A DNA stretch of 64,000 bases, taken from contig NC_080569.1 of assembly GCF_030253575.1 (NCBI RefSeq), forward strand, positions 4,899,501 through 4,963,500, given 5' to 3'. A model generated the notes under the pieces. It was not told where the DNA came from. It worked only from the letters and a program-made list of their open reading frames with translations, and did no database searches. The DNA comes from Rhododendron vialii. Lineage: Eukaryota > Streptophyta > Magnoliopsida > Ericales > Ericaceae. Position 1 is the first letter of the stretch. Each line of letters opens with the position of its first letter. This document shows, one piece after another, positions 2,283 through 41,895 of this stretch. Position numbers and translations under genes: made by a program.

Positions 2283-2694
2283 GATAAAGTTCTACTAGCC
2301 TAGTTTTTCACTTTAGCAAGCAATCACTCTCAGAAAACTTTGCTTTAGAGCAATAGATTAACAAATGTGTCTTGCCCCTTTGAATAATGAACAAGAATAT
2401 GCAATCAGCCACAGACTTGCGGATTAGAAAGGCAGCTTCTAGGAATAATTCTTGCTTGTTAAAGATGTATGACCAATTCAAATGTTCATCAATGCCGAAA
2501 AACCTAGAGAATAGTAAGCTCTAACCTGTATATGCATGTCCAAAACCACTTTTTATCCAAATGGTTGGATACTTTAAGCCAATTCTGATTTGTGCTACTG
2601 AGTTCATTCTTTGTTGGAAGCAATCAAACAATCGTAAACAGTAAACCTAACTAGGCGTTTGTTTCAAGTTAATTTCTATTCTTCATCCTGAACT

Positions 2695-17133: not shown

Positions 17134-17315
17134 TTCGCAATTATTCTACTTCCACACCCAAATACATACCCATTTACACACACAATAGAGATAGAGCCAA
17201 CGCACACTACACATTCAATGTGTGTGGAGGTGGGAGTGTATAAATAGGTGTGTGTTTAGGGCTACTACAGACAAAGCATCGTACGAAAGAGGGGGTTCGC
17301 TTCTGTAAGTACAGT

Positions 17316-20300
17316 ATGTGTAGGCATCTGATATCAGTCTGGCCGTCCCGTCGTCTCTTTCATTCCAAGATTTTGGCTGCTTCTTCTTCTCCGATCGCTA
17401 ATCCTCTCTTTTGTAATAAGTTTGATAAGTCAATCCACAGCGATTCCAAGAAATCCGTACGGTTGCCGTCCGTTGTTTCTTCTCCTGCCTCCAAACTCCA
17501 CACAAGTTTTCAATCTTTCCTCTCAATTTCATCATCGTATGAAGATCGGGTCGACCATTGTGCTCTACTACGTAAATGTAATAGTAGCACTACCGTTATT
17601 AGGTCTTTCTCCTCTCGCGCCTTTGTCAGGGACATTGTGAAGGAACCGGTAGTCTGTGATAATGATCATGAAGAAGAAGAACCTGATGATGGTGATTTTG
17701 AAGAATGCGGCCGGGAGGAGGATATGGTGAGTTTGATTAATAATAATTAATTGTCCGCGCTCTCTAATGGTGAAAAAAAAGAAAGAAAGAATCGAGATGA
17801 AATAAAAAATGATTCTTTATTGGTCTATTTCGTTTCTTAGACTCCGTTTGTTAAAATATTATATACAATGTAGAATATTTTCAGCTATTAAAAAGAATTT
17901 ACTTGCATCCATGCCAGATTAAGGTTGGTTATGCAAAAATAAAAGCAAAAAGTAAGGGTATGCTAATTATTAAAAGGGTTATGCATTATTTAAGATTTCT
18001 TCTTAGATAAGATAGCCGTTTCATTGGAAGTTATATTGTTTACCCATTTCGGTGATCATGCGGAACACCACAAAAGTAAGGGTATGCTAATTATTGGATT
18101 CTTTTTCCAGCCACAATGTGATGCAGTTGTCGGGGTACTGTGTACTGTTGCGGATGCGGATGTGTATTCCCCGTGGAGAAGGAGACAAGGGCCGTCTTTG
18201 GGTGCTGGATTAATCTTGAGTGGGAGAAGAGTGTTAACTACTGCTCATTCAGTGGATCAATACACTCAATTGGAAGTCAGGAAAGAGGTCTGGGGTGGTC
18301 CAAAGTGTACAGCTACAATGCTTGCTGTAGCACCTGAGTGTGATCTTGGTATGATTTACCTTCCTTTCTCTCTGCATCATTTGATGCACCACTTTTTGTA
18401 TCGCTAAATCTGGCAAAAATATGAGATTTAGGCAAACATTACTTCCTTTTTTATATAAAAGTGTTACAAGAAATCCGATTTGACTTTTCTAGCCCTTGAT
18501 TAGATGCTCTGCTTTTACAATAACGATATGCTTTGCACTTATATACCGTTGTGTTTTAAATATCCCTATTGGAAAGGTAATATGAACAACTGGGTTAGTG
18601 CTGCTTTGTGTAGTAGCTGGGACATTAGAGGGTGAATTTTTCCTAACATAGGGATTTGATTATGTATCTCCAGCTACGGGCATTCTTGAGTAGTTTGTTC
18701 TTATTTGTATTTGATTTGATTTGTGGTCATATGTCGGGCTTTCTTAGTTCTTACATGTTTGATTCTCGAGTTTAAACAAATCTTTATTTTTTATTTTTGT
18801 AGAATTTAGGTGAATGGTCAAATAATCTATTTGGTAGTGTTTGTTTGTTTTTGATGTTTTCGTTTGGATTGCTAGAGATCTTGCTCAATTCAAGATAACA
18901 TATCTCAATGTTTGCATGCATAGTGGTTAAAAACCTACTGTACAAGATATTTATCATATGATTCATATAGTCTCCTTCAAAAAATAATACGTTTCCCATT
19001 CCATATCCATTTTGTATAGAAATCCTAAATTATATATGTGTGTCCCCATTCAGTACGTATTCTATGATTACTTATTGGAAAAAAGTTGGACCTTATTTTT
19101 AGAGCAGAACCCCAAACGCATTATTCAAACTTGTTTAAACTTTGATGTAATTATGGCGATGTGCAATTAATTTCAAAGAAACCAACCTCGATATAGGGCT
19201 TGAGTAGAAGAAAGAACCATTATTAGATCGTGTTTTTTCTGAATCATGTAAGGGCTCTCCTTTTCTTTTCGTGACTAAGGTAGTAGGAAGCCTGAATGTG
19301 ATAGATCCCACTTCAGGGAGTTAAAGTTTTGCATCTTAAATTCTTTTCTTTTTTTTATGAATATGTGCATAGTTTGTTGGTGTTATCAGGTACGATACAC
19401 GTTACATATCCCAATGGGAATTATAAAATGAAAAAAATTTGATACACATACGTATCTATGTAACGTATCCCGATTTGGAAACACGAAATTGCAACAAATA
19501 AGGCTTGGTTTGTCAAAAAAGAAGCAACATGGACTTTTGATCAATTTTTCGATAAAAACAATTGGGTGATATTATATGTGGTGATTTGCATGCAGCAATT
19601 CTAACAGTCCATGATGATGAATTCTGGAATCAAGTTAAGCCAGTGGAATTTGGGGATATGCCATCACCAGGAGATAAAGTGATCATAGATCGCCTTCGAA
19701 AAGGTGGAGCGAAGCCTTTGGTGACTGCTTGTGTATTGGGATCGGGCATGACACGTTATTCATTTTGGGGCACCAAACTTCTGGCCTTTCGGGTATGTTG
19801 AAGGGAAAATTTCTGTGAAATATTGTTCTTAGTACTACAAATCATATGATTGAGTCCCTCTTCTTTTTTAGGAGTTTAATTTTAGAAATCTCCAAATTAC
19901 TCAAGAAAACCTCCAATTTTTATAATAATAATTATTATCCTCCAGTTCGCAGATAGATTGTGTCATCTTTGTTGTAAATTTTTGTAATAGCGCCATGGTG
20001 TAGAGTAGTTACTTAATGTCTCAAATACTTTTCTCACCCTATTTTCTCATAACTATGAAATTGCAAAATGTGGGTACATCATCAAAGATGTAGAAACAAT
20101 GGAGTTAATGAAATTTTAGTTGATAGTTAAGCTGGTTCCAAAATGACAGCGAAGGTATATCAGACTTACCAGTTGTTTAGCCTTACCTCTTAAAAAGGAA
20201 ATAGAACTTCAAATTAGCTTTCCAGCCCAATTTGAATTGCCTCAAATGAATAAACCAATGTAAATTTATGGTCAAAATACCGAAAGTTGTCCTGATTCAC

Positions 20301-23300
20301 TTCCAACTTGGGATTCAATCAAACTCTTGCTTTTTCTTTCCAAATTCGATTGGTGCATATTTTGTTGAATAATTCTGAATATTCATGACTTCTAAACCTT
20401 CTAGGATTTTTTTTTTATTCTTCACTTGGACTGTAACAAGTTGCAACCCGGTCCGTCTTTGTGTCCTTAAATCTCTAAATTAAATTCCAATTCATGCAAA
20501 CGGCTCCTCGGTGACCCATAATAACAAAATAGCCCAAAGTAATTCAAGTAACATGTATTAAGAACTTAAAAAATATAAATTAAAGGGCCCCCAATGTATC
20601 GGCACTTATCAAACCCTTGTCCAATACATCTTTTTCGTGTCCACAATTAGGAAATAAAAATCTTAAATTAAACACATGTGCGACACTCTTTCTGCAACGT
20701 GTCCTGCAACCTGTTCTGCAACTTGTACAAAACTTCTTTAATGTGAATGACTAAGAAATACGTGTGATTGGCAATTTTGTGTCCGTGCTTCTTGGCACAT
20801 AAGCAGTGTTTGCTGCAGTGTCAGTGTTGCAGCTTATGAGTTTCCCGTGTCAGAAGTTTTGTGCTACACGCAATGTCTTTAAATCTAAACTGTTAAGTGA
20901 TAAAACCGGAGAAGAAAATGCCGGCTGACATAGCAAACCTATAAAACCGGTCGTGGGTCAAAAAAAATTGGGCCTTTTGTTTTTGGCAGTAGATATAACT
21001 CTACACTGCCGCTCAAATTATTATGGACTAGAGTATCCAGGCAAGTTTTTAACTTCTCTAGCATATGTGGGATTGTAAGAGTTTTGGGGAGTGCTTTTAT
21101 AGAACAAGAAAGCCTCACTTGTTTGGTGCTTATTGATGTGGGATTTTGGTGCAGTAACTGTAAATTTAGAGCGTGTTTTTTGTCCTTTAGCGTCCTCTAG
21201 TTTTAGTAGGGTCCTCCAGTCTATGCATGGGTGTCTAGAGTCCTTGTTAGGTAGTTTTTGATCATTTTGAGAAAGATATTTGAGAGGTTCCCTAATTGTA
21301 ATCAAATCACTGATCCTCCAAACGGTCGTCGTCCCCAACCACCAAAAACTTGGGAATCCTTTGATGGTACCTGAACAGCTGCATATAAAGAATGTCTATC
21401 AATCACATATTATGGACAATAAACAAGACAAGTTATTTGTATAAGTGCACCTAATATCTGTAGTATTTATTATCTTCAACAAGTTTGTGACATAATTATG
21501 ATGTCATGTTTCAATTCTGGTTGAATTGTCTGGTTTTTCAAAATTTGGCTATTCTCTATGCACAGTGTTCGAACTGTGGCTCATATGTTAAGTATGAAGA
21601 GATATTAAGGAGTTTTAGAGAGAAGTTCGTACAAGGGTATTTTTGGGATACGGACCAAATACCAGGTTAAGGTTAGATTAGAGTCGTTATAAATACTATA
21701 TGTTGTAAATCCTATTTCATAACTATGATAATAAGAATAGCAGCCGCTCTCGCTCTTGTGGACGTACCCGGTTTTGGGGAACCACGTATATTGCTGTGTC
21801 GATTTATTTACTATTTTATACTCGTAAATCGTGTGCGTGTGTGTGACGATCCTAACACAGCTTCTTTATGCTTTTGTGTCGAAAACAACTTTTGAAAATA
21901 ATGAAGAGGCTAATTTCTTAGTATGCTTTTTGAATTTCTTTCTTGATGTTGAAAAGAAAATTCTGCTTTTTATTAAGCAACTTTACCATAAGTGCGGCTG
22001 CAACAAACACCTGCATATGTTATTATCTTTGATTTCCGATACATCGATGGGTTATCAATTTAAGTATATATAGTTGGCAGCGCGTTTGAGTGATACTCAA
22101 TCATACATCTTGTATTAGCTAGGACTTGTATCAAATGTCAAACCGAATTTGCCAATTCAGTAGGGATGACCCTATATTTTTGGGCTATACAACGAAATTT
22201 AAAATGATAAAACTTAAGGGCTAAGCTATGATCTGATCAATTCCAACTTTGGAAAGTTATGCTCTGGAGGGAATTATAATTACTACTCTGTTTTTCAAGT
22301 AATGCTTACATTTGGCGAACAATTGTCCATTGATGATCCTTCTAATTAATTGAGCACTTGTATTGGTCATTTATTTCCTTTGTAAAACTTATGTCCATTG
22401 GCTTTTAGTATGTTCTTATTGGTACGTTGGAGGGTATGGGAAACAAACTCTTGACCTCTAAGTGGGGAATGAAATTCTAGCCATTGGGCTAGCCATAATG
22501 GTTAATAGATTCTGATTATCAACTATAAACATTAAGTAGATTTTGGTAAACTTGATATCAATTGAAGCCCAAGAGAAATGATATGTTACTGTTTTGGCAA
22601 GGATTATGGTTATTCCTAAGTGGGGCTTCCATTTTTTGGTCAAAATTTGGGAGCCCAAAGCGACTACATTGGTCTTTGCAACTGTATGGGTCTGTTTTTG
22701 GTTCACCAAATCCAAATACTTTGCTTTCATTTAACAGATCAATGTAGGCCGGAGGGGAGCGACTCTCAGTGGACCTGCTTTTGATGAAAGAGGCAAATGT
22801 GTAGGATTGCAGCTTCAGTACCAAGGCTACAAAAGTGGTGATTTTGTACCTGCAGAAGTTATTAAGCACTTCATTCAAGACTATGACAAGAATGGAGCAT
22901 ATACTGGTATGCTTGGATTTTGCAACTTCTTGTAATGGGCAACCCTAATGTATATTCTATCTTCTTTTTCATAGTCAACAAATTGCAGTGACTGTACTAC
23001 ATTGCCAACCATGTAATTCATGTATTGTTGCATACATGTTTGGGCACTGTCTCGTTGATTGGCTTGGTGAAATAGATTTCTGTGAAGATGCGGACTACCA
23101 ACTCCTAGACAAAAAGAAAGGCCCATTGTTCGAGTCCGCATAGACGTGATAGGTAGAAATTAAATTTAAAATAGCCCTATAATTTAAAGAATCTTCAATC
23201 AAAACATAAAAGCTCTTAAAAATCTGTACGGTTGAATAAAACTTTGATTGAATAAAATGAGGAACCTCTTATGTGGTTTAAGTAACAAATGCGGGAAAAG

Positions 23301-26300
23301 CCTTTCTTTTCCTTGCTCGCTCTCACAGACGTTGCGATACTCTCAGAGCGTGTGGAATACTCTCTTTCTTAGTTTTTATCTCAAGTATTTTGGCGTTTGA
23401 AACTTCCCCAGAGTAATCAAACGTAACTAGCTGGTTCAATCAAAATGGATTCTTGGTAACATGGGGGCTAAAGAAAGAAAGAAATGTACAAATTCATATT
23501 AGATTAGGTGCGTAATAATATTTTTAAAATCTTAAATTAAATAAGTGAAATGGAAAAACCTTTATTAATTCGCTTATTCCATTGGATATTACGAAGCCTC
23601 CTCATGTATGACATGATTTGGATCTAAGCACATAAGAGATTCTCTCTTAACTATTCTATCCTTCATACGGTTTTTGCACGGACGGTAGTTGGAATTAGCG
23701 GCTCTCCTAGGTTCTCTCATCTGGGATCCCTAGGGAAGATGATCAAGTTGGTCCTTGCTTTTTGAGAAGCTGCTTTTATATAATTTAGGCAATAAGGGTG
23801 GAAAATTCATGGACCAGCACCATATAAAAGCCAATTTACTCGCCTTTTGAGATAAAATTCTATTCTCTCCTATCTCCCTATACGCTCTTCTGGCCTTCTT
23901 GCCTTAAAAGTCGTGCCACCCTGCCCCTCTAATTAACATCGACTCTCAACGCAGCTTCCTCCATGTTTTTTTAGATATTCTATTGTGAATTATATGATGA
24001 GTATGACTTATATATTTTTCTTTGATGTGGAAACGTAACAGTGGTTATATTGTCTTTATAAAATCGGCCCTTACGATTCATAATCAATCATACTTAGATA
24101 TTCTATTGTGAATTATATGATGATTATGACTTATGTATTTTTCTTTGATGTGGAAACATAACAATGGTTATATTGTCTTTATAAAATTGGCCCTTACGAT
24201 TCATAATCAATCATACATAAGATTACAAGATTCAGCCATCTAGAGTAATAAGATTTCCATTTGGGCTCACCGTAGGCACCTTATCGGTTAGAATGGGATG
24301 GATGTGCTTTGTCTAGACCTTACTGGGAGGATGGTGTCAAAATCGCTCCCATGTCTAGCCTGACTCTACTAATAAGCGGCTTTAGGGCCGATCAAATAGC
24401 TTCTGGTCCTTTGGCCTCTATATGAAGGTCCACCTTTTACTAATACTAAGGGTTTAGTGATCCCATCTATCTATTTGTATCTAATGCCAGCGTTGCTACA
24501 CCTTATTTCTTTGTTCCTTCCCTTAAATCGTGTGTTTGGTTCTTCAAATTCTTAACAATCTAAGCATCCCCATTTGTATCTTCAAAATACAGGACTCCCA
24601 CTACTTGGCATCAAGTGGCAAGAGATGGAAAATCCTTATCTGCGTATGTTAATGAAGATGGAACATGATGAACAAGGCGTCCTTATTACAGAAGTCAGTC
24701 CTAACTATCCAGAATCTGTGGTTCTAAAACCAAACGATGTTATTCTCAGCATCGATGGGATTAACATTAATAATGATGGAACAGGTAAATCTTTTGTCCT
24801 GTTTTCCCCTTTGTTTTATGCAAGATTTGATCCTTAAACAACATCTCTATATTTATGCTCTACTTGCAATTAATTTTCAGTTCCATTTTTAAGAGGACAG
24901 AGGATAGAATTCAGTTATCTCATTGGAAAGAAATATGTTGGCGATAAGATTGTTATTAAAGTACGCCGAGGTTCAGAGATATGTGAATTCACTACAGAAC
25001 TTGCAACACACAAACAATTCGTCTCGGCCAACATAATTGGGAGGCCTCTTCGGTATTACATTATTGGAGGATTTGTTTTCACCACTCTTTCTTTTCCATG
25101 TATGAGAGTTATGGTGAGTAGTTCACTTAGATATCTTGTGGTAGCTCTTTTGATAAAACTTAGAATATTATTTCATTGATCGGTTTTGCTTTATAATTGG
25201 TATGGAATGTTCCTAACCTTGTGCTTTCTTTTCTTGTATTTATTAAAAACTTATTACACTAGGATGATAGGTACTACATTGATAATGAGAGGCCAGACGA
25301 TGACAAGCTTTTATTCCAAGCTCTATACGAAGAGCCTGTTGTGCTTCTTAAGGTCTCCTTCTGTTCATTTCTGATTATTATTCTCATGTGCTGTGAAAAT
25401 TTATTGTATTCACAAATTGAATCAGAATGCATTTAGGGGAGAGAGTGGCTGAACCCATAAGGACTTCTGTTGTGTAGCAAAATGACGTCACTTTAAAGAC
25501 ACTAACCGGCGTGTCCCCGTGTCCCCATGTCTATTAAAGTTAATTATTTTATAAGGGGACACAACGGAGACCTGTATAAGGACCCAACAAAGGTTAAAAC
25601 ACAATTATTTTAAATTTTGGGGGGTAAATGTTGAATTACTCCAAATATTGTGGTTTAAAAGTGTAATATTATTTGTATACAATGTACATGTGATGCTTGT
25701 TTATGTATATTAATGCTTTATGCTTCTATCGATACCTATGTTTCCACTGGTATAAAAAATAATTATTGCTTTATTGTTGTTGTGTCCCCTACCATGTCCG
25801 TGCCTTAGTGTTTGTATCCGTATCCGTGCTTCATAGCATGTGATGATGAAAGATATCAAAATTTGACATATTATGATAGTTCTTACAATTATTCATGTTA
25901 AATTCGAATTCGTTAAGGATTTCTTAAGGATTCTGAGCCATGTCCATGTCTTGTCTTTGAAGGATTTCTTGAGTGCCACACACATATGGGACTGGTTCTA
26001 CCCACACAAATTTTGACACAATGTCAATCATTTATATCAATGGTCGAGATTAGAAAACACTCTCTCCTCCCTCCCCATCTCCTCACCTAAATCCCTCCCT
26101 CTCTCCTTCCCCACCGCACAACCCCCCCCCCCTTCCTTCTCAGAGCATCTCCGGCCAGCTCCTCCATCTCTGTCGACTCCCTCTGTAGACAATGACCTCA
26201 TAGTTTGGAGCCTTTCGGGTCATATTTTGATGATCTAAACCGTTCAACTTGTTTAAAACATGTTTTTAAATATACCCGTGAGAAATCAACTCAAATATAT

Positions 26301-27521
26301 ACACACACGTACATGGCAATAGAGTTATATATATGGGATTGAACCTATCCTCAACGTATCGCTGTCCTATTTTTTGGATAAATAACAAATCAGCGTGTCC
26401 ATGTCATATTCGTGTCTCGTGTCTGTATCTGTGCTTCTTAGCCTTTAGCCATGAGCTTGTAGTCTAGTCCAAAGTTTTGTAGCTACCAATTACTTAATAA
26501 CCCATCTAGGCTAGCCAACATGTGGGTCATGCAAACCATATGCATTGACAACTTTGCTTGACGATATATTAGCAATTATCATCTTTTCTTTCATAATCAA
26601 CAATTGTGTGCGGATCCAATAAAACAAATCAACAATTGTGTGTGGATGTCAAAAAGATAATTATATTAACGTATCAAGCACTACTTAAGAACCTAGAAAT
26701 CAATTTGGGACATAATTATCAATTATTATGCTTATTAGGTAGCTTTAGTGGCACAGTGGTGCTAAGCCATACATATTGCTCATCCTTAATCGTTTTTAAG
26801 GTATTGGCGCGAATATATTTCTTTAGGGTAAGCAAGCATGAATATGTTGGTCTGTTGTACTTATTTTGGAGTGTGAATATGTTTGTCAGGTGCTTAAAGC
26901 TGACATCAATGCTGGGTATGAGACGGAGTGTACACTGCAAAATCAGGTTTGGAAATTTGTGTCACTTTCAAATTATGAATGAAACAAACCCATTGATGCT
27001 AATTTGCTTATAAATGCGTCTTTTGCTTATTTCAATGTAGGTTCTCGTCACTTTCAATGATAAGCCTGTTGAGGGACTAAATAGCTTGGTCAGTATGGTA
27101 GAGACTTGTAAGGAAGATTTCATGAAGTTCACATTTGCAAACAAGAAGGTGGACCACTTTCCATTTTTGTTCTTAGTTTTTCAGCGGAGACCTCCTAATT
27201 TTATCATCAATTTTTCATCTTTTGGATTTTTTTCCTTTCGGTGAGATCAAGAAACCGGAGGTATTGTTTTGTCTGTGTCATTCTTGTTGCCATTTTTGTG
27301 TTTTGACAATTGACAACCCTATAATTACCATATCCGTGACTAATTGTTGATCTTGATTTAACCATCTTATTAACGGTGGCAAGTTTGTTTTGGTCATTTT
27401 TGTGCAGACTATGGTATTGCCAACAAACATTGCCAGATCAAGAACTCCGGATATCCTTAAAGCACACTCTATAAATTGTGCTATGTCTGATGATCTGAAG
27501 GAATTAGTGAAGTTGACTTGA
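17316..27521 (+). CDS. Deg/HtrA-like S1C family protein, copy 1 (catalytic Ser lost)
   Basis: Ten exons: 17316-17726, 18111-18348, 19596-19792, 22738-22906, 24593-24784, 24881-25113, 25263-25352, 26890-26946, 27041-27148, 27408-27521. All introns are GT-AG and in phase, giving 602 residues. The Arg/Ser-rich, acid-poor N-terminus (RRLFHSKIL) looks like a mitochondrial presequence, as in Arabidopsis DEG10. A trypsin-like domain (about 140-340) keeps His183 in VLTTAHSV and Asp215 in ECDLAILTV. Where the family has INPGNSGGPAF, this protein has ATLSGPAF with Leu292 at the serine position. The substrate loop is also degenerate. PDZ1 follows ([14 protein letters not shown], about 339-425), and a PDZ2-like C-terminus ([16 protein letters not shown]) ends in KLT-stop. 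The reading frame is fully open, so a non-proteolytic role is possible. Start chosen at the ATG shared by all three copies. Confidence 0.88.
21566..21857 (+). mobile_element. Copia-like solo LTR in intron 3 of copy 1
   Basis: The insertion begins TGTTCGAACTGTGGCTC and ends GATCCTAACA. CACAG lies immediately before it and again at its right edge (21856-21860, overlapping the last two LTR bases). Unit 2 has the uninterrupted site ATGCACAGCTTCTTTATG at about 35.93 kb. The internal GTTATAAATAC box, AATAAGAA and GAACCACGTATATTGCTGTG block resemble copia LTR promoter, R and U5 parts. No internal region remains. Confidence 0.8.
22410..22505 (-). mobile_element. Possible tRNA-like SINE fragment, minus strand
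   Basis: Read on the minus strand, ATGGCTAGCCCAATGGCTAG resembles an A box and GGTCAAGAGTTTG a weak B box about 35 bp on. The same sequence is in unit 2 near 36.49-36.59 kb, so it predates the duplication. There is no clear tail or target duplication. Confidence 0.35.
23973..24218. repeat. Tandem repeat in intron 4, 123-bp period
   Basis: A unit from AGATATTCTATTGTGAATTA through ATCGGCCCTTACGATTCATA is present twice, nearly identical. The counterpart in unit 2 (38029-38291) has a 4-bp deletion and an extra partial repeat. Confidence 0.85.
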
Positions 27522-28489
27522 GGCGAAGAAAGTCCCATATATATCTGAAATTTGAATGGTTTTGAGTGGTAACGTTGTTCAGTTACCATTCAGTGCATTC
27601 TTTTCAGCAATGCTTTCCAGTTCCATTCTCTTTAAAAGGTTGAGCTAACTTGTGGTGGCAATATCATATAGGAGTTAGTCAAGTTGTGAGATGTTGCGGG
27701 TGGTTGTTCTTGGATGACTTTTGGTTTTTACTACGGCATGAGATTTTCCAAAATACGCATAACTGCATTGGGCGTTGACTATCCACCCTTGTGAACATAA
27801 TTTAGATTGCCTGTGTATATTCATCTCAAGACCGTCATTGTATCTGAAAGTTGCTTGATGGTTCGGTTTTAGAAAACGGGCATCTGTGATTTTAGGATAT
27901 GCTTCTGGAAGTGGGGTAAGTTTCTGGTTGTATGACTGTTTGCAGTTCCGATAGTATCCTGGGAATTATTTCTATCTCATCCTTGCCACTTTAGGCATAG
28001 TTGGAGATGGCATGGGTGCATATGTTACTTTTGACAAAATGTGCAGACTAGTATTGAGACCGAGTTACTTGATACTGAGTTGGTAAGTAGACTACATAGC
28101 TCCTTGTTCGCGTACTTGTTAACGTGCCTTCACAGTTCTGCAAGTTTTTTTCCTTCTTTGGTTATGCTTTCAAGCACTGTACAACAAGTTTGCCAATTTC
28201 TTTTACAGAGATACCCATCTTTGACTTTTCAAGGCGTTTGCTGACATACTTTCCACGTACCCCATGGATCTCTCTTCACAATGGCTTTTGATTGGGCTTT
28301 TCGCTATTGGAACCTTTTTTTTTTATTGGATAAATATTGCTATTGCAACTGCAAATTTAAGATTTTAAACTTAAGAAACTACATTTTCTTACATCCAAAA
28401 TACTTTGCATCTGAACAATTAAATTAGATCTAGATAAATTAGGACTTCTCATTCATTTTTTCGTTAGAGTTCGGGATATATCTTTTAAT

Positions 28490-29811: not shown

Positions 29812-29944
29812 TCATTTGATATATATGTGTTCTCACTTGGTGTAAATTCTAGGTCCGTCACTGATTACATTTTTCTATATTTTGGTCAAAAGTATTATGT
29901 TCCCATAAATAGTTGAAAGACATAAAAAAATGGAAACCGGAGAG

Positions 29945-29951
29945 TATAAAT
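29945..29951 (+). promoter_or_regulatory. TATA box of Deg-like copy 2
   Basis: TATAAAT about 95-100 bp upstream of the ATG, in the context GGAGAGTATAAATTTAGAAG that is also present in the 5'-only remnant. The MULE ends only ~130 bp upstream of it, so distal promoter sequence has been displaced. Confidence 0.5.
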
Positions 29952-30045
29952 TTAGAAGAGGGGGTTTCGCCGTGGGTGCACATTCCTAGGGCTACTACAG
30001 ACAAAGCATCATACGAAAGAGGGGTTTCGCTTCTGTAAGTACAGT

Positions 30046-33000
30046 ATGTGTAGGCATCTGATCTCTGTCTGGCCGTTCCGTCGTCTCTTTCATTCCAAGA
30101 TTTTGGCTACTACTTCTCCGATCGCTAATCCTCTCTTTTGTAATAAGTTTAATAAGTCAATCCACAGCGATTCCAAGAAATCCGTACGGTTGCCGTCCGT
30201 TGTTTCTTCTTCTTTTTCTTCTCCTGCTTCCAAACTCCACACGAGTTTTCAATCTTTCCTCTCAATTTCATCACCGTATGATGATCGGGTCGACCATTGT
30301 GCTCTACTACGTAAATGTAATAGTAGTACTACCGTTATTAGGTCTTTCTCCTATCGCTCCTCTGTCAGGGACATTGTGAGGAAATCGGTAGGCTGTGATA
30401 AATATCGTGAAAAAGAACCTGATGATGGTGATTTTGAAGAATGCGGCCGGGAGGAGGATATGGTGAGTTACTGAGTTTGATTAATAATTAATTATCCGCG
30501 CTCTCTAATGGTGAAAAAAAAGAAAGAAAGAAAATCATGAAATAAAAATTCTACACTCTTTTTTTTTTTGACATTTACACCCCTTTTTTTGAATTTTAGC
30601 GTTGAAAGTGTACGTATTTTTTTGCTAGAAGACAAAAGTGTTGAATGTGTGTGTATTTTTTTGCTAGATGACAAAAAAAAAAAAAAGGTATAGATGTCAA
30701 AAAGGGACCGTAAAATTCAATTTCCAATAAAAAAGGAATCTCTATTGGTCTATTTCGTTTCTTAGACTCCGTTTGTTAAAATATTATATACAATGTAGAA
30801 TATTTTCTTCTGTCTTTTTCTAGCCAAACATCAAAAATTAAATAAAATATTTCAGCTATTAAAAAGAATTTACTTGCAGCCATGCCAGATTAAGGTTGGT
30901 TATGCAAAAAGAAAGAACAGAAATGACACAGGTACTGAAGGTGGCATAGGGAAATTGTACCTACGGCGAGTCTCCGGCCACCTCCAAAAATTCTAAATAA
31001 AAAACCAAGGGGGCCTACGCAGACACACAGACACAGGAGTCAACGGCATTCGATGTGTGTAGGGTGATTGATTTAAATACTCTATTCATACACAAAAATA
31101 GGGTGTTTGGTATTTAGATAAAGAGGATGCTTATCTAAACACCCTATTTTTCGTGTATAAATAGCGTGTTTAGATCAAACACCCTACACACATTGGATGC
31201 CATTGATTCCCACGAAGGCCTCTAAGTTTTTTTTTTTTAAGAAATTTTGGACGGCTCGGATTGGCCGTCCGGTGTCCGGAGGCAGCCCGGCACGGCCGTC
31301 GGTACGATTTCCCTACGGTTTTGGTCGGTACTCATAGCAGTACTCGAACACCACAAAAATAAGGGTATGCTAATTATTGGATTCTTTTTCCAGCCACAAT
31401 GTGATGCAGTTGTCGGGGTACTGTGTACTGCTGCGGAAGTGGATGTGTTTTCCCCGTGGAGAAGGAAACAGGAGCCGTCTTATGGTGCTGGATTAATCTT
31501 GAGTGGGAGAAGAGTGTTAACTACTGCTCATTCAGTGGATCAATACACTCAATTGGAAGTCGGGAGAGAGGTCTGGGGTCCAAGGTATACAGCTACAATG
31601 CTTGCTGTAGCACCTGAGTGTGATCTTGGTATGGTTTACATTACTTTCTCTCTGCATCATTTGATGCACTACTTTTTGTATCGCTAAATCTGGCAAAAAT
31701 ATGATATTTAGGCGAACATTACTTCCTTTTTTACATAAAAGTGTTAAAAGAAATCCGATTTGACTTTTCTAGCCCTTGATTAGATGCTCTGCTTTTACAA
31801 TAACTATATGCTTTGCACTTATATACCACTGTGTTTTAAATATCCCTATTGGAAAGGTAATATGAACAACTGGGTTAGTGCTGCTTTGTGTAGTAGCTGG
31901 GACATTAGAGGGTGAATTTTTCCTAACATAGGGATTTGATTATGTATCTCTAGCTACGGGCATTCTTGAGTAGTTTGTTCTTATTTGTATTTGATTTGAT
32001 TTGTGGTCATATGTCGGGCTTTCTTAGTTCTTACATGTTTGATTCTCGAGTTTAAACAAATCTTTATTTTTTATTTTTGTAGAATTTAGGTGAATGGTCA
32101 AATAATCTATTTGGTAGTGTTTGTTTGTTTTTGATGTTTTCGTTTGGATTGCTAGCGATCTTGCTCAATTCAAGATAACATATCTCAATGTTTGCATGCA
32201 TAGTGGTTAAAAACCTACTGTACACGATATTTATCATATGATTCATATAGTCTCCTTCGAAAAATAATACGTTTCTCATTCCATATCCATTTTGTATAGA
32301 AATCCTAAATTATATATGTGTGTCCCCATTCAGTATGTATTCTATGATTACTTATTGAAAAAAAGTTGGGCCTTATTTTTAGAGCAGAACCCCAAACGCA
32401 TTATTCAAACTTGTTTAAACTTTGATGTAATTATGGCGACGTGCAATTAATTTCAAAAAAACCAACCTCGATATAGGGCTTGAGTAGAAGAAAGAACCAT
32501 TATTATATCGTGTTTTTTTTTGAATCATACAAGGGCTCTCATTTTCTTTCCGTGACTAACGCAGTAGGAAGCCTGAATGTGATAGATCCCACTTCAGGGA
32601 GTTAAAGTTTTGCATCTTAAATACTTTTTTTTATGAATATGTGCATAGTTTGTTGGTGTTATTAGGTACGATACACGTTACATATCCCAATGGGAATTAT
32701 AAAATGAAAAAAAATTGATACACATACGTATTTATGTAACTTATCCTGATTTGGAAACACGAAATTGCAGCAAATAAGGCTTGGTTTGTCAAAAAAGAAG
32801 CAACATGGACTTTGATCAATTTTTCGATAAAAACAATTGGGTGATATTATATGTGGTGATTTGCATGCAGCAATTCTAACAGTCCATGATGATGAATTTT
32901 GGAATCAAGTTAAGCCAGTGGAGTTCGGGGATATGCCATCACCAGGAGATAAAGTGATCATAGATCGCCTTCGAAAAGATGAAGCGTATTTGCCTTTGGT

Positions 33001-36000
33001 GACTGCTTCTGTATTGGGATCGGGCATGACACGTTATTCATTTTGGGGCACCAAACTTCTGGCTTTTCGGGTATGTTGAAGGGAAAATTTCTGTGAAATA
33101 TTGTTCTTAGTACTACAAATCATATGATTGAGTATCTCCTCTTTTTTAGGAGTTTAATTTTCGCAATCTCCAAATTACTCAAGAAAACCTCCAATTGTTA
33201 TAATAATAATTATTATACTCCAGTTCGTAGATAGATTGTGTCGTCTTTGTTGTAAATTTTTGTAATAGCGTCATGGTGTAGAGTAGTTACTTAATGTCTC
33301 AAATACTTTTCTCAACCTATTTTCTCATAACTATGAAATTGCAAAATGTGGGTACATCATCAAAGATGCAGAAACCATGGAGTTAATGAAATTTTAGTTG
33401 ATAGTTAAGCTGGTTCCAAAATGACAGCGAAGGTATGCTAGACTTACCAGTTATTTAGCCTTACCTCTTAAGAAGGAAATAGAACTTCATGCTAAAATAT
33501 GGGTATAGCAATAAGCAATCCATACAGCAAACTATTGAAAAACTCTAATGTAGAACTATCATTATGCATATTTTGCGGAGAAGAAATTGCACATTATTAT
33601 GTTGGTTTGGGTTGGACACAGAGGAAACTAATGGATTGTGGTCCTATCATGTCTGACTGGCTATTGATATGACTTACACTGCAGCTAAGCTGATAAGCAC
33701 AAACACTTAAAAGCTGGTAGTGTGTCTTTGTCCGACATGTGTCGGACACCGACACTCCTCGTACACTTCTGGACACACGTTCATTAAGTTTTTTTTTTTT
33801 TTTTTTCATGTCCACAATTATGGAATAAAAATCTTAATTCAAACACATTCGACACTGTTTCTACAATGTGTCCTGCAAGCTGTCCTGCAACGTGTCTGAC
33901 ACTTCAATGATGCGAATGACTAAGAAATAAGCGAGACCAGCACTTCTGTTTCGAAGCCACCACCACTGCATAAACACGTTAGGTATAAACCTAGCTTACT
34001 ATTCAAATCAATTAAGATTACTGCGAGGGCTTGCAATCCCCATCAATAATCACCCAGGGGATTATTGGGACTCATCGCTCGTGTATTTGTATAGACTATC
34101 TTAGGCTTGGCAAGAATCGTCTTGTCGGCACGACTGGTCCATCCTAACATAATCTATCTCATTCACTCGAATCGCAATCTAAGAAAACCATTGCATGAGT
34201 ATACTTCATAGCGCGAATATAATACAAAGATAGGTAGGAAATATTCAAACCAATTCATATAATGAAAGATTCGTTGTCATACAATCGAATTCAAATAGTA
34301 AACTTAGAATCAATTCAAGAGCATAGTTACTTGAATGGTTGCTTCTTCTACACCCTAGAGATTGGTCTAGCCACTCATGATGAGACGAGTCTTTGAAACT
34401 TCTGTCCCTCTATTCCTTACCCCAAATAATGAATGTGGTTATGTATTTATTGGAATAGGAGACTTCTTTCCAAAGATGCTAGGGTTTCAAGATATAACAG
34501 AGAAATTCGTGTAGAATTATTTCCAGCTCTTTAGGGTCATCTTGTGAGGCTGTTTTGACCTAGTCAAAATTGGGAAATTACTATTTCACGCAAAGTTGTA
34601 GCTCTTTAAATTAGCTTTCCAACCCAATTTGAATTGCCTCAAATGAATAAACCAATGTAAATTTATGGTCAAAACACAGAAAGTTGTCCTGTTTCACTTC
34701 CAACTTGGGAATCAAACTCTTGCTTTTTCTTTCCAAATTCGATTGGTGCATATTTTGTTGAATAATTGTGAATATCCATGACTTCTAAACCTTCTAGGAT
34801 TTTTTTTATTCTTCACTTGGACTTTACCATGTTGCAACCCGGTCCGTCTTTGTGTCCTTGAATCTCTAAATTAAAGTCCAATTCATGCAAACGGCTCCCC
34901 GGTGACCTATAATAACAAAATAGCCCAAAGTAATTCAAGTAACATGTACTAAGAACTTAAAAAATATAAATTAAGGGCCCCCCATGTATCGGCACTTATC
35001 AAACACTTGTCCCATACATTTTTTTCGTGTCCACAATTAGGAAATAAAAATCTTAAATCAAACACTTGTGCGACACTCTTTCTGCAACGTGTCCTGCAAC
35101 TTGTATAAAACTTCTTTGATGTGAATGACTAAGAAATACGTGTGATTGGCAATTCTGTGTCCGTGCTTCTTGGCACATAAGCAGTGTTTGCTGCAGTGTC
35201 AGTGTTACAGCCTATGAGTTTCCCGTATTAGAAGTTTTGTGCTACACGCAATGTCTTTAAATCTAAACTGTTAAGTGATAAAACCGGAGAAGAAAATGCC
35301 GGCTGACATAGCAAACCTATAAAACCGGGTCAAAAAAAATTGGGCCTTTTGTTTTTGGCAGTAGATATAACTCTACATCGCCGCTCAAATTATTACGGAC
35401 TTAAGTATCCGGGCAAGTTTTTAACTTCTCTAGCATATGTGGGATTGTAAGAGTTTTGGGGAGTGCTTTTATAGAACAAGAAAGCCTCACTTGTTTGATG
35501 TTTATTGATGTGGGATTTTGGTGCAGTAACTGTAAATTTAGAGCGTGTTTTTTGTCCTTTTAGCGTCCTCCAGTTTTAGTAGGGTCCTCCAGTCTATGAA
35601 TGGGTGTCTAGAGTTCTTGTCAGGTAGTTTTTGATCATTTTGAGAAAGATATTTGAGAGGTTCCCTAATTGTAATCAAATCACTGATCCTCCAAACGGCC
35701 GTCATCCCTAACCACCAAAAACTTGGGAATCCTTGGATGGGAACTGAACAGCTGCATATAAAGAACGTCTTTCAATCACATATTATGGACAATAAACAAG
35801 ACAAGTTATTTGTTTAAGTGCATCTAATATCTGTAGTATTTGTTATCTTCAACAAGTTTGTGACATAATTATGGTGTCATGTTTCAATTCTGGTTGAATT
35901 GTCCAGTTTTCAAATTTTGGCTATTCTCTATGCACAGCTTCTTTATGCTTTTGTGCCGAAAACAACTTTTGAAAATGATGAAGAGACTTATTTTTTAGTA

Positions 36001-39000
36001 TGCTTTTTGAATTTTTCTTTCTTGATGTTGAAAAGAAAATTCTGCTTTTTATTTAGCAACTTTACCATAAGTGCGGCTGCAACAAACACCTGCATATGTA
36101 TATTTTTTTGATTTTCGATACATCGATGGGTTATCAATTTAAGTATATATAGTTGGCAGCGTGTTTGAGTGATACTCAATCATACATCTTCTTGTATTAG
36201 CTAGGACTTGTATCAAATGTCAAACCGAATTTGCCAATTCAATAGGGATGACCCTAAATTTTTTGGGCTATACAATGAAATTTAAAATGACAAGACTCAA
36301 GGGCTAAGCTATGATTTGATCAATTCCAACTTTGGAAAGTTATGCTCTGGAGGGAATTATAATTACTACACTCTGTTTTTCAAGTAATGCTTACATTTGG
36401 CGAACAATTGTCCATTGATGATCCTTCTAATTAATTGAGCACTTGTATTGGTTATTTATTTCCTTTGTAAAACTTATGTCCATTGGCTTTTAGCATGTTC
36501 TTATTGGTACATTGGAGGGCATGGGAAACAAACTCTTGACCTCTAAGTGGGGAATGAAATTCTAGCCATTGCGCTTGCCATGATAGTTAATAGATTGATT
36601 ATCAACTATAAACATTAAGTAGATTTTGGTAAACTTGATATCAATTGAGGCCCAAGAGAAATGATATGTTACTGTTTTGGCAAGGATTAGGGTTATGCCT
36701 AAGTGGGGCTTCCATTTTTTGGTCAAAATTTGGGAGCCCAAAGCGACCACATTGGTCTTTGCAACTGTATGGGTCTGTTTTTGGTTAACCAAATCCAAAT
36801 ACTTTGCTTCCATTTAACAGATCAATGTAGGCCGGAACGGAGCGTCTGGCGGTGGACCTGCTTTTGATGAAAGAGGCAAATGTGTAGGATTGAAGCTTCA
36901 GTCCCAAGGCTACAAAAATGGTGATTTTGTACCTGTGGAAGTTATTAAGCACTTCATTCAAGACTATGACAAGAATGGAGCATATACTGGTATGCTTGGA
37001 TTTTCCAACTTCTTGTAATGGGCAACAGTGACTATACTACATCGCTAACCATGTAATTCATGTATTGTTGCATACATGTTTGGGCACTGTCTCGTAGGTT
37101 GGCTTGGTGAAATAGATTTCTGTGAAGATGCGGACTACCTACTCCTAGACAAAAAGAAAGGCCCATTGTTCGAGTCTACATAGACGTGATAAGTAGAAAT
37201 TAAATTTAAAATTGCCCTATAATTTAAAGAACTCTTCAATCAAAACATAAAAGCTCTTAAAAATCTATACGGTTGAATAAAACTTTGATTGAATAAAATG
37301 AGGAACCTCTATGTGGTTAAGTAACAAATGCGGGAAAAGCCTGTCTCTTCCTTGCTCGCTCTCGTAGACGTTGCAATACTCTCAGAGCGTGTGGAATACT
37401 CTCTTTCTTGGTTTTTATCTAAAGTATTTTGGCGTTTGAAACTTCCCTAGAGTAATCAAACGTAACTAGCTGGTTTAATCAAAATGGATTCTTGGTAACA
37501 TGGGGGCTAAAGAAAGAAAGAAATGTACAAATTCATATTAGATTAGGTGCGTAATAATATTTTTAAAATCTTAAATTAAATAAGTGAAATGGAAAACCCT
37601 TTATCTATTCGCCTATTCCACTGGATATTACGAAGCCTCCTCATGTATGACATGATTTGAATCTAAGCACAGAAGAGATTCTCTCTTAACTGGTCCATCC
37701 TTCATACGGTTTTTGCACGGACGGTAGTTGGAATTAGCGGCTCTCCTAGGTTCTCTCATCTGGGATCCCTAAGGAAGACGATCAAGTTGGTCCTTGCTTT
37801 TTGAGAAGCCGCTTTTATATAATTTAGGCTATGAGGTTGGAAAATTCATGGACCAACACCATATAGACGCCGATTTACTCGCCTTCTGAGATAAAATCCT
37901 ATTCTCTCCTATCTCCCTATACGCTCTTCTGGCCTTCACAAGCTTCTTCTCTCATTGCCTTAAAAGTTGTGGCACCCCGCCCCTCTAATTAGCATAGACT
38001 TTCAACGCAGCTTCCTCCATGTTTTTTTAGATATTCTATTGTGAATTATATGATGAGTATGACTTATGTATTTTTCTTTGATGTGGAAATGTAACAGTGG
38101 TTATATTGTCTTTATAAAATCGGCCCTTACGATTCATAATCATACTTAGATATTCTATTGTGAATTATATGATGATTCTGTTGTGAATTATATGATGATT
38201 ATGACTTATGTATTTTTCTTTGATGTGGAAACGTAACAGTGGTTATATTGTCTTTATGAAATCGGCCCTTACGATTCATAATCAATCATACATAAGATTA
38301 CAAGATTCAGCTATCTAGAGTAATAAGAATTCCATTTGGGCTCACCGTAGGCACCTTATCGGTTAGAATGGGATGGATGTGCTTTGTCTAGACCTTACTG
38401 GGAGGATGGTGTCAAAATCGCTCCCATGTCTAGCCTAACTCTACTAATAAGCGGCTTTAGGGCCGATCAAATAGCTTCTGGTCCTTTGGCCTCTATATGA
38501 AGGTCCACCTTTTACTAATACTGAGGGTTTAGTGATCCCATCTATCTATTTGTATCTAATGCCAGCATTGCTACACCTTATTTCTTTGTTCCTTCCCTTA
38601 AATTGTGTGTTTGGTTCTTCAAATTCTTAACATTCTAAGCATCCCCATTCGTATCTTCAAAATACAGGACTCCCACTACTCAGCATCAAGTGGCAAGAGA
38701 TGGAAAATCCTTATCTGCGTATGTTAATGAAGATGGAACATGATGAACAAGGCGTCCTTATTACAGAAGTCAATCCAAACTATCCAGAATCTGTGATTCT
38801 AAAACCAAATGATGTTATTCTCAGCATCGATGGGATTAACATTAATAATGATGGAACAGGTAAATCTTTTGTCCTGTTTTCCCCTTTGTTTTATGCAAGA
38901 TTTGATCCTCAAACATCTCTATATTTATGCTCTACTTGCAATTGATTTTCAGTTCCATTTTTAAGAGGACAGCAGATAGAATTCAGTTATCTTATTGGTA

Positions 39001-41895
39001 AAAAATATAAGGGCGATAAGGTTGTTATTAAAGTGCGCCGAGGTTCAGAGATATGTGAATTCATTACAGAACTTGCAACACACAAACAATTCGTCCCAGC
39101 CAACATAATTGGGAGGCCTGTTCGGTATTACATTATTGGAGGATTTGTTTTCACAACTCTTTCTTTTCCATGTATGGAAGTTATGGTGAGTAGTTCACTT
39201 AGATATCTTGTGGTAGCTCTTTTGATAAAACTTAGAATATTATTTCATTAATCGGTTTTGCTTTATAATTGGTATGGAATGTTCCTAACCGTTGTGCTTT
39301 CTTTTCTTGTATTTATTAAAAACTTATTACCCTAGGATGATAGGTACTACAATGATAATGAGAAGTTCGAAGATTGTAATGAGAGGCCAGACGATGACAA
39401 GCTTTTATTCCAGGCTTTATACGAAGAGCCTGTTGTGCTTCTTCAGGTCTCCTTTGTTCATTTCTGTTTATTCTTCTCATGTGTTGTGAAAATTTATTGT
39501 ATTCACAAATTGAATCAGAATGTATTTAGGCGAGAGAGTGGCTGAACCCACAAGGACTTCTGTTTTGTAGCAAAATGACGTCACTTTAAAGACACTAATC
39601 GGCGTGTCCCCATGTTGATAGGGGGACAAGGAGACACTCCGAGGACTCAGGCAAAAAACATATGTCTATTAAAGTTAATTATTTTTTTAAAGGGACACGG
39701 CAGAGACCTATATAAGGACCCAACAAAGGTTAAAACACAATTATTTTAAATTTTGGGAGGTAAATGTGAATTACTCCAAATATTGTGGTTTAAAAGTGAA
39801 ATATTATGTGTATACGATGTACATGTGATGCTTGTTTATGTATATTAGTGCTTTATGCTTCTATCGATACCTATGTTTCCACTGGTTTAAAAAATAATTA
39901 TTGCTTTGTTGTTGTTGTGTCCCCTGCCATGTCCGTGTCTTAGTGGTTGTATCCGTATCTGTGCTTCATAGCAAGTGATGATGAAAGATATCAAAATTTG
40001 ACATATTATGATAGTTCTTACAATTATTCATGTTAAATTCGAATTCGATAAGGATTTCTTAAGGATTCTGAGCCATGTCCATGTCATGTTTTTGAAGGAT
40101 TTCTTGAGTCCCATGACAGCTATATTCTTCATAACTTATCTTATCTTATCTATTATATAAGTTGGGAGGTATACTTGTGGATATATATATATCAGTCTGT
40201 ATCCCATGAGGGGTCCTCATTTTAGTTAAATTGCGGTCCTCCACATTGTAGTTAAAATGCGGTCCTCATCCGTGTGTGTGTGTATATATACACACACACA
40301 CATATGGGACTGGTTCTACCCACACAAATTTTTTCACAATTTTTGACACAATGTCAATCATTTATTTCAATGGCCGAGATTAGAAAACACTCCCCCCCCC
40401 CCCCCCCCCCCATCTCCTCACCTAAATCCCTCCCTCCCTCCTTCCCCACCGCACAAACCCCCCCCCCCCCCCACCCCCGGAGCATCTCCGGCCAGCTCTT
40501 CCATCTCCGGTGACCTCATAGTTTGGAGCCTTTCAGGTCATATTTTGATGATCTAAAAACATTTCAATTTGTTTAAAACATGTTTTTAAATATACCTGTG
40601 AGAAAACAGCTCAAATATTTGTATATAATATATATATACACACACACGTACATGGCAATAGAGTTATATATATGGGATTGAACCTATCCTCAATGTGTCA
40701 ATGTCCTATTTTTTGGATAAATAGCAAATCAGCGTGCCCATGTCGTATTCGTGTCTCGTGTCTGTATCTGTGCTTCTTAGCCTTTAGCCATGAGCTTGTA
40801 GTCTAGTCCAAAGTTTTGTAGCTACCAATTACTTAATAACCCATCTAGGCTAGCCAACATGTGGGTCATGCAAACCATATGCGTTGGCAACTTTGCTGAT
40901 AGCTTTGACGATATATTAGCAATTATCATGTTTTCTTTCATAATCAACAATTGTGTGCAGATCCAAAAAAACAAATCAACAATTGTGTATGGATGTCAAA
41001 AAGATAATTATATTAACGTATCGAGCACTACTTAAGAACCTAGAAATCAATTTGGGACGTAATTATCAATTATTATGCTTATTAGGTAGCTTTAGGGGCA
41101 CAGTGGTGCTAAGCAATACATATTGGTCATCCTTAATCGTTTTTTAAGGTTTTGGCGAATATATATCTTTAGGGTAAGCAAGCATGAATATATTGGTCTG
41201 TTGTACTTATTTTTGGAGTGTGAATATGTTTGTCAGGTGCTTAAAGCTGACATCAATGCTGGGTATGAGACGGAGTTTACACTGCAAAATCAGGTTTGGA
41301 AATTTGTGCCACTTTCAAATTATGAACGAAACAAACCATTGATGCTAATTTGCTCATAAATGCTTCTTTTGCTTATTTCAATGTAGGTTCTCATCACTTT
41401 CAATGATAAGCCTGTTGAGGGACTAAATAGCTTGGTCAGTATGATAGAGACTTCTAATGAAGATTTCATGAAGTTCGCATTTGGAAACAAGAAGGTGGAC
41501 CCCTTTCCATTTTTGTTCTTAATTTTTCAGCGAAGACCTCCTAATTTTATCATCAATTTTTCGTCTTTTGGATTTTTTTCCCTTTTGGTGGGATCAAGAA
41601 ACCGGAGCGATTGTTTTGTCTGCGTCATTCTTGTTGCCTTTTTTGTGTTATGACAATTGACAACCCTATAATTACCATATCCATGACTAATTGTTGATCT
41701 TGATTTAACCATCTTATTAACATTGACAAGTTTGTTTTGGTCATTTTTGTGCAGACTCTGGTATTGCCGACAAACATTGCCAGATCAAGAACTCCGGATA
41801 TCCTTAAAGCACACTCTATAAGTTGTGCTATGTCTGATGATCTGAAGGAATTAGTGAAGTTGACTCGAGGTGAAGAAAGTCCCATAAATATCTGA
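30046..41895 (+). CDS. Deg/HtrA-like S1C family protein, copy 2 (catalytic Ser lost)
   Basis: Ten exons: 30046-30462, 31394-31628, 32871-33070, 36821-36989, 38668-38859, 38953-39185, 39336-39446, 41237-41293, 41387-41494, 41755-41895, giving 620 residues with all GT-AG junctions in phase. The architecture equals copy 1: presequence, trypsin-like domain, PDZ1, PDZ2-like end. His185 (TTAHSV) and Asp216 (ECDLAIL) are kept. The serine motif reads ASGGGPAF, with Gly294 at the nucleophile position and a Ser one residue earlier. Differences from copy 1 include small serine-rich indels near the N-terminus, a 7-residue insertion in exon 7 (EKFEDCN), and a C-terminus longer by 8 residues (RGEESPINI) because the copy 1 stop TGA is CGA here. 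Both copies being open suggests selection or very recent duplication. Confidence 0.88.
30925..31340. mobile_element. Insertion in intron 1 of copy 2 with foldback core
   Basis: Absent from the equivalent position of unit 1. The core (about 31040-31210) is palindromic: GGCATTCGATGTGTGTAGGG faces CCCTACACACATTGGATGCC, and AATAGGGTGTTTGG faces AAACACCCTATTTT. The GC-rich right part contains GGCCGTCCGGTGTCCGGAGG. The exact borders and duplication are not resolved. Confidence 0.55.
33491..34604. other. 1.1 kb of intron 3 present only in unit 2
   Basis: Unit 1 joins AATAGAACTTC directly to AAATTAGCTTTCC. In unit 2 about 1.1 kb intervenes, ending AAGTTGTAGCTCTTTAAATT just before the shared AGCTTTCC. 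The right-hand sequence reads smoothly into the shared part, which suggests unit 1 lost the segment. It contains a second copy of the GTGTCCTGCAA-type motif also found at 20.69 and 35.08 kb. No gene is seen. Confidence 0.55.
38029..38291. repeat. Tandem repeat in intron 4 of copy 2
   Basis: Counterpart of 23973-24218, with the same AGATATTCTATTGTGAATTA unit, a 4-bp deletion between repeats and an extra GATGATT(C/A)TG-type partial repeat. It shows that the array keeps changing length after duplication. Confidence 0.75.
40110..40300. other. Segment in intron 7 present only in unit 2
   Basis: Unit 1 passes directly from CTTGAGTGCC to ACACACATATGGGAC. Unit 2 has about 180 extra bp holding two GGTCCTCA-type direct repeats with GTTAAA(T/A)TGCGGTCCTC, a TATATATATA run and a (GT)n/(AC)n palindrome (TGTGTGTATATATACACACA). 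Long C runs follow in the shared part (near 40393-40410 and 40458-40472), and they are longer than in unit 1. Confidence 0.5.

Follow-up and report, generated by a model that had tools for sequence, protein, structure and literature searches.

A tandem pair of DEG9-related genes without the catalytic serine in Rhododendron vialii and their probable place in a family of pseudoproteases

How may two neighbouring protease genes both come to lack the residue that cuts, and what would then keep them? This question is raised by a tandem pair of Deg/HtrA-like genes, called here copy 1 and copy 2, of Rhododendron vialii. Both are found in a stretch of 64,000 nucleotides corresponding to bases 4899501-4963500 of contig C13 (NC_080569.1), hereafter the window, where they lie head-to-tail on the + strand (copy 1, 17316-27521, 602 amino acids; copy 2, 30046-41895, 620 amino acids). 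The data presented below suggest that they are recent tandem copies in a lineage-specific family of pseudoproteases derived from DEG9, the products of which would be full-length binders acting without cutting. We consider this reading probable, though far from assured.

Each copy consists of 10 exons and 9 GT-AG introns, with phases matching between copies and a frame open up to the stop codon. The DNA of the two copies aligns in blocks of 90-96% identity, introns included, and 538 of the 599 aligned residues of the proteins are identical. According to Pfam, the domain order in both is Trypsin_2, PDZ_2/PDZ and PDZ_3, that is protease-PDZ-PDZ as in the DEG9 group (clade II Deg/HtrA, with one protease and two PDZ domains), Trypsin_2 being barely above its cut-off of 27.6 bits (28.1 bits in copy 1 and 32.3 bits in copy 2). 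A scan of the pair with NCBIfam returned distant HtrA models only, all under cut-off. The two ten-exon open frames with His, Asp and PDZ domains, proposed from the letters alone in a first-pass annotation of this DNA, are thus borne out by the gene models and by Pfam.

The catalytic His and Asp are retained (His183 and Asp215 in copy 1, His185 and Asp216 in copy 2). At the nucleophile position, copy 1 has Leu292 (CTC) and copy 2 has Gly294 (GGC), and neither shows the Ser of GNSGG that marks an active serine endopeptidase of the Deg/HtrA (S1C) kind. The DEG9 segment IDAAINSGNSGGPAF corresponds to INVGRNGASGGGPAF in copy 2, and its counterpart in copy 1 also has 15 residues. The phmmer alignment of copy 2 with Arabidopsis DEG9 (5il9) is gapless over the active site. 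Moreover, in 15 of 15 genes compared, 12 codons of exon 4 precede the Pro that follows the motif; the acceptor of this exon is CAG in 14 of them and TAG in DEG9b. Because the distance from the exon 4 start to Pro is constant, the register of the active site is fixed and not arbitrary, and the gapless placement of Leu292 and Gly294 made in the first-pass annotation stands. When copy 1 is compared with DEG9b, exon 3 begins with a part in which 16 of 28 residues match. The VGYPxGGD loop, already noticed to be altered, is replaced: over the rest of this exon, loop included, matches to DEG9b fall to 7 of 37 residues in copy 1 and 5 of 38 in copy 2. They amount to 5 of 15 in the serine motif of copy 1 and to 3 of 12 in the next loop, which is shortened by 4 residues, and rise to 14 of 18 in the final part of exon 4 and to 40 of 63 in PDZ1. 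Divergence between copy 1 and DEG9b is therefore concentrated at the active site. Judged by their sequences, both copies are pseudoproteases.

In order to place the pair, the whole assembly (532,647,506 bases, 13 contigs) was searched with copy 1. With 73 of 122 candidates scored, at least 82 exon matches were obtained, so that the family counts are lower bounds. The family comprises at least 12 genes on contig C13 between 3.62 and 4.94 megabases, including the pair and the genes named here PC to PL, plus one, PM, on contig C6. Hence the two copies are adjacent, as had been claimed, but they are not an isolated pair. The other loci among the matches listed are a family fragment on C6 (PN), one match on C5, and a more distant gene on each of C8 and C10. 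The fragment PN, at C6:3061000-3063800 (L089), is limited to matches with exon 5, part of exon 6 and exon 7; it yielded no exon 4 and is left out of the count of 13 family genes. The C8 and C10 genes are DEG9 genes (DEG9a and DEG9b) with His-Asp-Ser, GNSGG and VGYPIGGD all intact. The C5 locus is DEG10. Splice sites are canonical in the modelled exons of the family genes outside the pair; PG, PH, PJ, PK and PL were read in part, exon 3 of PH being cut by the end of the locus, and for PG, PH and PI the start of exon 4 was set manually at the CAG border instead of at another AG chosen automatically.

At the nucleophile position, Ser is found in DEG9a, DEG9b, PJ, PK and PL. It is absent from 10 of the 13 family genes, being replaced by Cys in four (PC, PE, PF and PM), by Val in three (PG, PH and PI), by Tyr in PD, by Leu in copy 1 and by Gly in copy 2. 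The catalytic His is replaced in PF (R), PG and PH (G), PI (S) and PK (Q), and the Asp in PE (G) and PI (N). Thus, the full triad is retained in PJ and PL, two genes of 13, and PI retains none of the three residues. Even the Ser-bearing PJ, PK and PL have changed flanks (GISGG, GTSGS and GVSGA).

In a protein tree, built after removal of alignment columns in which gaps exceeded one half, the 13 family genes group together with support 100/100. PJ, PK and PL are basal and weakly ordered; then come PG-PI, PM, PD+PF, PE, PC and finally the window pair. Support is 100/100 for the pair and for the pair with PC, and 78.5/79 and 92.9/89 for two inner nodes. The first-pass annotation had called for a tree of DEG proteins. 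After addition of DEG10, AtDEG9 and AtDEG2, the family, and the pair with it, is found inside the DEG9 clade (support 96.9/97, against DEG10 and DEG2) and not in the mitochondrial DEG10 group; this tree took 13 of the 15 genes, PG and PH being excluded, and does not resolve the order of the DEG9 genes within the clade. The exon 2/3, 3/4, 4/5 and 5/6 borders of the family are those of DEG9a and DEG9b, and the window genes are 46-47% identical to DEG9 over exons 2-6. Among solved relatives of copy 2, Arabidopsis DEG9 (5il9; 416.8 bits, E 1.3e-123) scores best, followed by DEG2 (4fln; 242.4 bits). Two other parents were considered and rejected: DEG10, which does not fall within the clade formed by the family and DEG9, shows 33% identity and has another exon layout, and DEG2, because the tree groups the family with DEG9.

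The order in which the active site was lost may be read from the same tree. Cys occupies the Ser position in four of the seven genes of the pair's clade, including the deepest branch and the sister gene PC. By eye, and with parsimony applied to this one alignment column, the simplest history would be a single Ser to Cys change in the ancestor of the seven genes, followed by changes from Cys to Tyr, Leu and Gly. Because PC, PE, PF and PM carry Cys and PD carries Tyr, the view that Ser would have been lost well before the pair's duplication is supported. The earlier suggestion that proteolysis was lost before duplication therefore holds. As for the differently mutated sites, Leu and Gly do differ, but they would most simply be later changes from an inherited Cys and not two losses of Ser.

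The N-terminal region also distinguishes the pair from DEG9. DEG9a and DEG9b begin with MGDNKRKRGRKPK and MVESNKKRGRKPKK, of the KRKRGRKPK and KKRGRKPKK type, and continue into the protease domain without an intron. The pair has a different first exon, devoid of the KRKRGRKPK stretch, and does not show the nuclear-type N-terminus of the DEG9 group. In the family genes whose first exon was read, namely copies 1 and 2, PC, PD, PE and PF, this exon stands apart and contains many Ser and basic residues; the N-terminus of the two copies is basic with few acidic residues. In PC, PD, PE and PF, the likely start Met is at, or adjoins, the position where copies 1 and 2 have Ile (KILA; in copy 1 this is Ile19, ATT at 17370-17372). 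Therefore, the window copies either start 18 codons upstream or lose that stretch. Over their first 40 residues, copies 1 and 2 carry a net charge of +5 and +6, as against +3 to +4 for PC, PD, PE and PF and +1 and +2 for DEG9a and DEG9b. However, the hydrophobic moment (copies 1 and 2, 0.20 and 0.31; PC, PD, PE and PF, 0.29-0.49; DEG9a and DEG9b, 0.30 and 0.36) fails to separate the copies from DEG9, which speaks against a new address, and the mitochondrial presequence proposed in the first-pass annotation is not established. AtDeg9 is described as nuclear by green fluorescent protein fusion and several other Degs as mitochondrial (PMC4130198). Retargeting of the family to mitochondria or plastids is possible.

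Whether selection retains such proteins has to be weighed against the main rival explanation, that of a decaying family. In this case, the copies would be functionless or nearly so, on their way to becoming pseudogenes, and Ser would have changed as nothing preserved it. We judge this unlikely, while leaving it appreciable weight. The ratio of nonsynonymous to synonymous substitution rates (Ka/Ks, omega) was estimated between pairs of genes and, for the seven-gene clade, for the pair with PC and for exon 4 alone, by likelihood over a grid, with a top value of 3 in the case of exon 4. Several observations speak for decay and against retention by selection. Exon divergence of the pair (5.1%, 92/1800) is not below intron divergence (4.7%, 375/7989). 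The overall omega between the copies, which the first-pass annotation had asked for, is 0.80 with an interval of 0.48-1.51. The active-site exon 4 alone gives about 2, with an interval that starts at 1.0 and extends up to the grid maximum. Frameshifts are found in exon 6 of PG (L078 446-668; this exon was excluded from later alignments) and near the end of PM, in exon 10 (L077 922-1028), and PN is a fragment. For the pair with PC, the interval of omega in the PDZ exons is 0.4-1.0 and includes 1, and separate values for protease and PDZ are not significantly better than a shared one (twice the log-likelihood difference, 2dlnL, 3.66). The contrast between protease and PDZ is small for PC-PE (0.69 v 0.58) and PD-PF (0.64 v 0.43), with overlapping intervals. 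In the clade of PG, PH and PI, the testable PDZ part (86 codons) gives a 2dlnL of only 3.17 against omega 1. For DEG9a-DEG9b the values are 0.05 and 0.07, so that constraint is far weaker in every family pair tested than in DEG9. Slow decay thus stays alive because constraint on the pair itself is weak.

Other observations go against decay. Indels between the exons of copies 1 and 2 measure 3, 12, 3, 3, 3 and 21 bases, all six being multiples of three, as compared with 7 of 43 intron indels of up to 30 bases. No stop codon was gained between the copies where 3.2 would be expected without selection (P = 0.039; 5000 simulations starting from copy 1, with the intron substitution spectrum), and the splice sites of the other family genes are canonical, as mentioned above. 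Within the seven-gene clade, omega for PDZ exons 5-9 is 0.6 (0.5-0.7; 2dlnL 14.8 against 1), and for protease exons 2-4 it is 0.9-1.0 (0.8-1.2), the coarser grid giving 1.0 and the finer one 0.9; separate values fit better than a shared one (2dlnL 5.96). Taken pair by pair, with branches in common between the pairs, the contrast is strong for copy 1-PC (protease 0.96 v PDZ 0.37) and for copy 1-PM (1.04 v 0.31). Hence, the relaxed selection at the site put forward in the first-pass annotation is upheld in the seven-gene clade but does not reach significance when the pair is taken with PC. Finally, in PG, PH and PI, which carry Val and lack both Ser and His, the protease exons have omega values of 0.28 (PG-PH) and 0.37 (PH-PI), with a 2dlnL of 21 against omega 1. 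Despite the PG frameshift, constraint on this apparently dead protease domain is the best single argument for a non-catalytic role. Selection retaining the pair as pseudoproteases would be favoured by its in-frame indels and by the omega of the clade's PDZ exons, and the pair's own value of 0.80 does not settle the matter.

A second alternative, which appears very improbable, is that the nucleophile was changed and not lost. PC and PM would be cysteine-type Deg proteases and the pair would have lost that activity afterwards. Chymotrypsin-fold viral proteases with a Cys nucleophile exist, and Cys is found in four of the 13 family genes, two of which (PC and PM) also retain His and Asp. However, PF has no His and PE no Asp, yet both have Cys. 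In addition, the oxyanion-hole Gly is replaced in a gapless alignment by Ala (PC, PE and PF) or Val (PM), another sequence takes the place of the VGYPxGGD loop, and exon 4 has 4-5 residues fewer 3′ of the site.

When both copies were scanned in all three + strand frames for G.SGG, SGGP, GDSG and GNSG, the sole match was GASGG in copy 2, one residue off register. It may be proposed that copy 2 thereby regained a Ser nucleophile, since GASGG matches the GxSGG form: where PC has ACT TGC AGT, copy 2 has TCT GGC GGT, and three adjacent changes spell ASGG. We find this hardly credible. It would need one residue fewer before the motif and one more after it than in the other 14 genes, and the neighbouring loops of copy 2 are as degenerate as those of copy 1; the corresponding alignment of copy 2, with Ser one residue off, was rejected on the exon borders. 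Least probable of all, and already contradicted, is a gene-model error whereby another exon or junction would restore GNSGG, for which the long intron 3 (2945 bases in copy 1) might leave room. The first-pass annotation had named such an exon or junction as a refutation; no + strand frame of either copy encodes GNSG, GDSG or SGGP, and 13 other genes have an equivalent exon with the same start-to-Pro distance.

Positions of the gene features of the pair and of two upstream motifs are collected below. A bacterial promoter scan was empty, its bacterial model being unsuited to plant DNA.

Exons, nucleophile codons and candidate TATA motifs of copies 1 and 2 (window positions)
Feature	Position	Strand	Remark
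TATAAAT motif, candidate TATA box	17239..17245	+	77 bases 5′ of copy 1 start codon; motif match only
Copy 1 exon 1	17316..17726	+	start codon, basic Ser-rich N-terminus, acidic linker; donor GTGAGT
Copy 1 exon 2	18111..18348	+	protease domain; His183, Asp215
Copy 1 exon 3	19596..19792	+	protease domain; VGYPxGGD loop replaced
Copy 1 exon 4	22738..22906	+	active-site exon
Copy 1 nucleophile codon CTC	22765..22767	+	Leu292 where Ser expected
Copy 1 exon 5	24593..24784	+	PDZ1
Copy 1 exon 6	24881..25113	+	PDZ1 end, PDZ2 start
Copy 1 exon 7	25263..25352	+	gene model
Copy 1 exon 8	26890..26946	+	PDZ2
Copy 1 exon 9	27041..27148	+	PDZ2
Copy 1 exon 10	27408..27521	+	ends in stop TGA
TATAAAT motif	29945..29951	+	101 bases 5′ of copy 2 start codon; motif match only
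Copy 2 exon 1	30046..30462	+	gene model
Copy 2 exon 2	31394..31628	+	His185, Asp216
Copy 2 exon 3	32871..33070	+	gene model
Copy 2 exon 4	36821..36989	+	active-site exon, INVGRNGASGGGPAF
Copy 2 nucleophile codon GGC	36848..36850	+	Gly294 where Ser expected
Copy 2 exon 5	38668..38859	+	PDZ1
Copy 2 exon 6	38953..39185	+	gene model
Copy 2 exon 7	39336..39446	+	21 bases longer than copy 1 exon 7
Copy 2 exon 8	41237..41293	+	gene model
Copy 2 exon 9	41387..41494	+	gene model
Copy 2 exon 10	41755..41895	+	stop TGA; 27 bases longer than copy 1 exon 10

Elsewhere in the window, a second duplicated segment occurs (1527-3412 and 50293-52166, 91% identity over 1914 aligned bases). Part of a thiolase C-terminal domain is found at 9491-9925 (+, 103 bits), a reverse-transcriptase-like RVT_3 domain, probably derived from a retroelement, at 58997-59338 (-, 55.4 bits), and the start of a kinase-like domain, under the Pfam cut-offs in that single exon, at 48309-48608 (+). 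In the genome, clusters of Trypsin_2 in long open frames, apparently single-exon genes, were observed on C1, C2, C4, C5, C7 and C12. They match the exon queries from the copies weakly and represent a second expanded trypsin-like family; the one gene read (L001 1399-2127, -) encodes 242 amino acids, with GASGGP and a Trypsin_2 score of 82.8 bits.

One of the closest known systems is the Arabidopsis protease DEG9 (At5g40200, Protease Do-like 9, PDB 5il9), which has in common with the pair the domains, four intron borders and the clade in the tree. It differs by its His-Asp-Ser triad and its nuclear-type N-terminus, the pair lacking Ser and having another first exon. A dead plant Deg is as such not new. 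In one published account (PMC3473262), inactive Degs are recorded in Arabidopsis, poplar, rice, moss and Chlamydomonas; AtDeg6, AtDeg16 and OsDeg-like 1, 2 and 4 are given there as inactive because domains are truncated or residues of the triad are mutated. Of these, AtDeg6 is a truncated protein and AtDeg16 has no Asp, whereas the pair is full length and lacks the Ser. Table 2 of the same account lists PtDeg17.1-17.3 of Populus as species-specific Deg-like genes with inactive protease domains. Like the pair, they form a species-specific inactive set, and two of them have neighbouring locus numbers; compared by description, they differ from it by one protease and one PDZ domain, a length of 298-364 amino acids (one is a fragment), and the lack of a named Arabidopsis relative. 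A cluster of full-length genes derived from DEG9 that combines a new first exon with six different residues at the Ser position was not seen in literature searches covering open-licence papers.

What could such proteins do? By sequence, the copies have kept their frames, the core of DEG9, its intron positions and both PDZ domains, and have lost the catalytic Ser together with the surrounding loops. In the proposed mechanism, the nuclear-type N-terminus of DEG9 would have been swapped for a new first exon, which maybe directs the protein to an organelle, and the proteins would act without cutting. The PDZ domains would bind peptides that are either C-terminal or exposed and hydrophobic, and the fold of the dead protease domain would serve for the assembly of oligomers. 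These oligomers may hold substrates as a chaperone does, or may join active DEG proteins and tune them; the first-pass annotation had named chaperone-like binding or titration of active Deg oligomers as possible roles. Two analogies make binding without cutting the best-supported mechanism, the steps beyond sequence being those that we infer. The second protease domain of AtDeg7 is degenerate, and a role in trimerization is reported for it (PMC3473262); however, this dead domain shares its chain with an active one, whereas the whole protein would be dead in the case of the pair. MamO of magnetotactic bacteria is described as a pseudoprotease of the HtrA family whose active site is degenerate and which activates an active relative (PMC4794232). 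Unlike the pair, MamO is bacterial and metal-binding, and its profile matches copy 1 weakly (21 bits for a cut-off of 800). A bolder and rather doubtful picture may also be envisaged, in which a nuclear DEG9 would have given rise to a dozen organelle-directed pseudoproteases, mixed PDZ adaptors that tune active DEGs and use their former active sites as new pockets. Such a picture would include the new first exon, the loss of Ser via Cys and via Val, and selection on the dead fold in some members.

Inactive plant Degs were known previously one at a time, and the published Deg tree omits them (PMC3473262). In Rhododendron vialii, one genome contains intact DEG9 genes together with relatives in which the triad is complete, others that have lost one or two of its residues, and PI, which has lost all three. 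This series lets one ask in what succession the parts of a protease are lost, and for what a dead fold is kept. It also lets one test whether HtrA-type pseudoproteases may regulate active proteases in plants.

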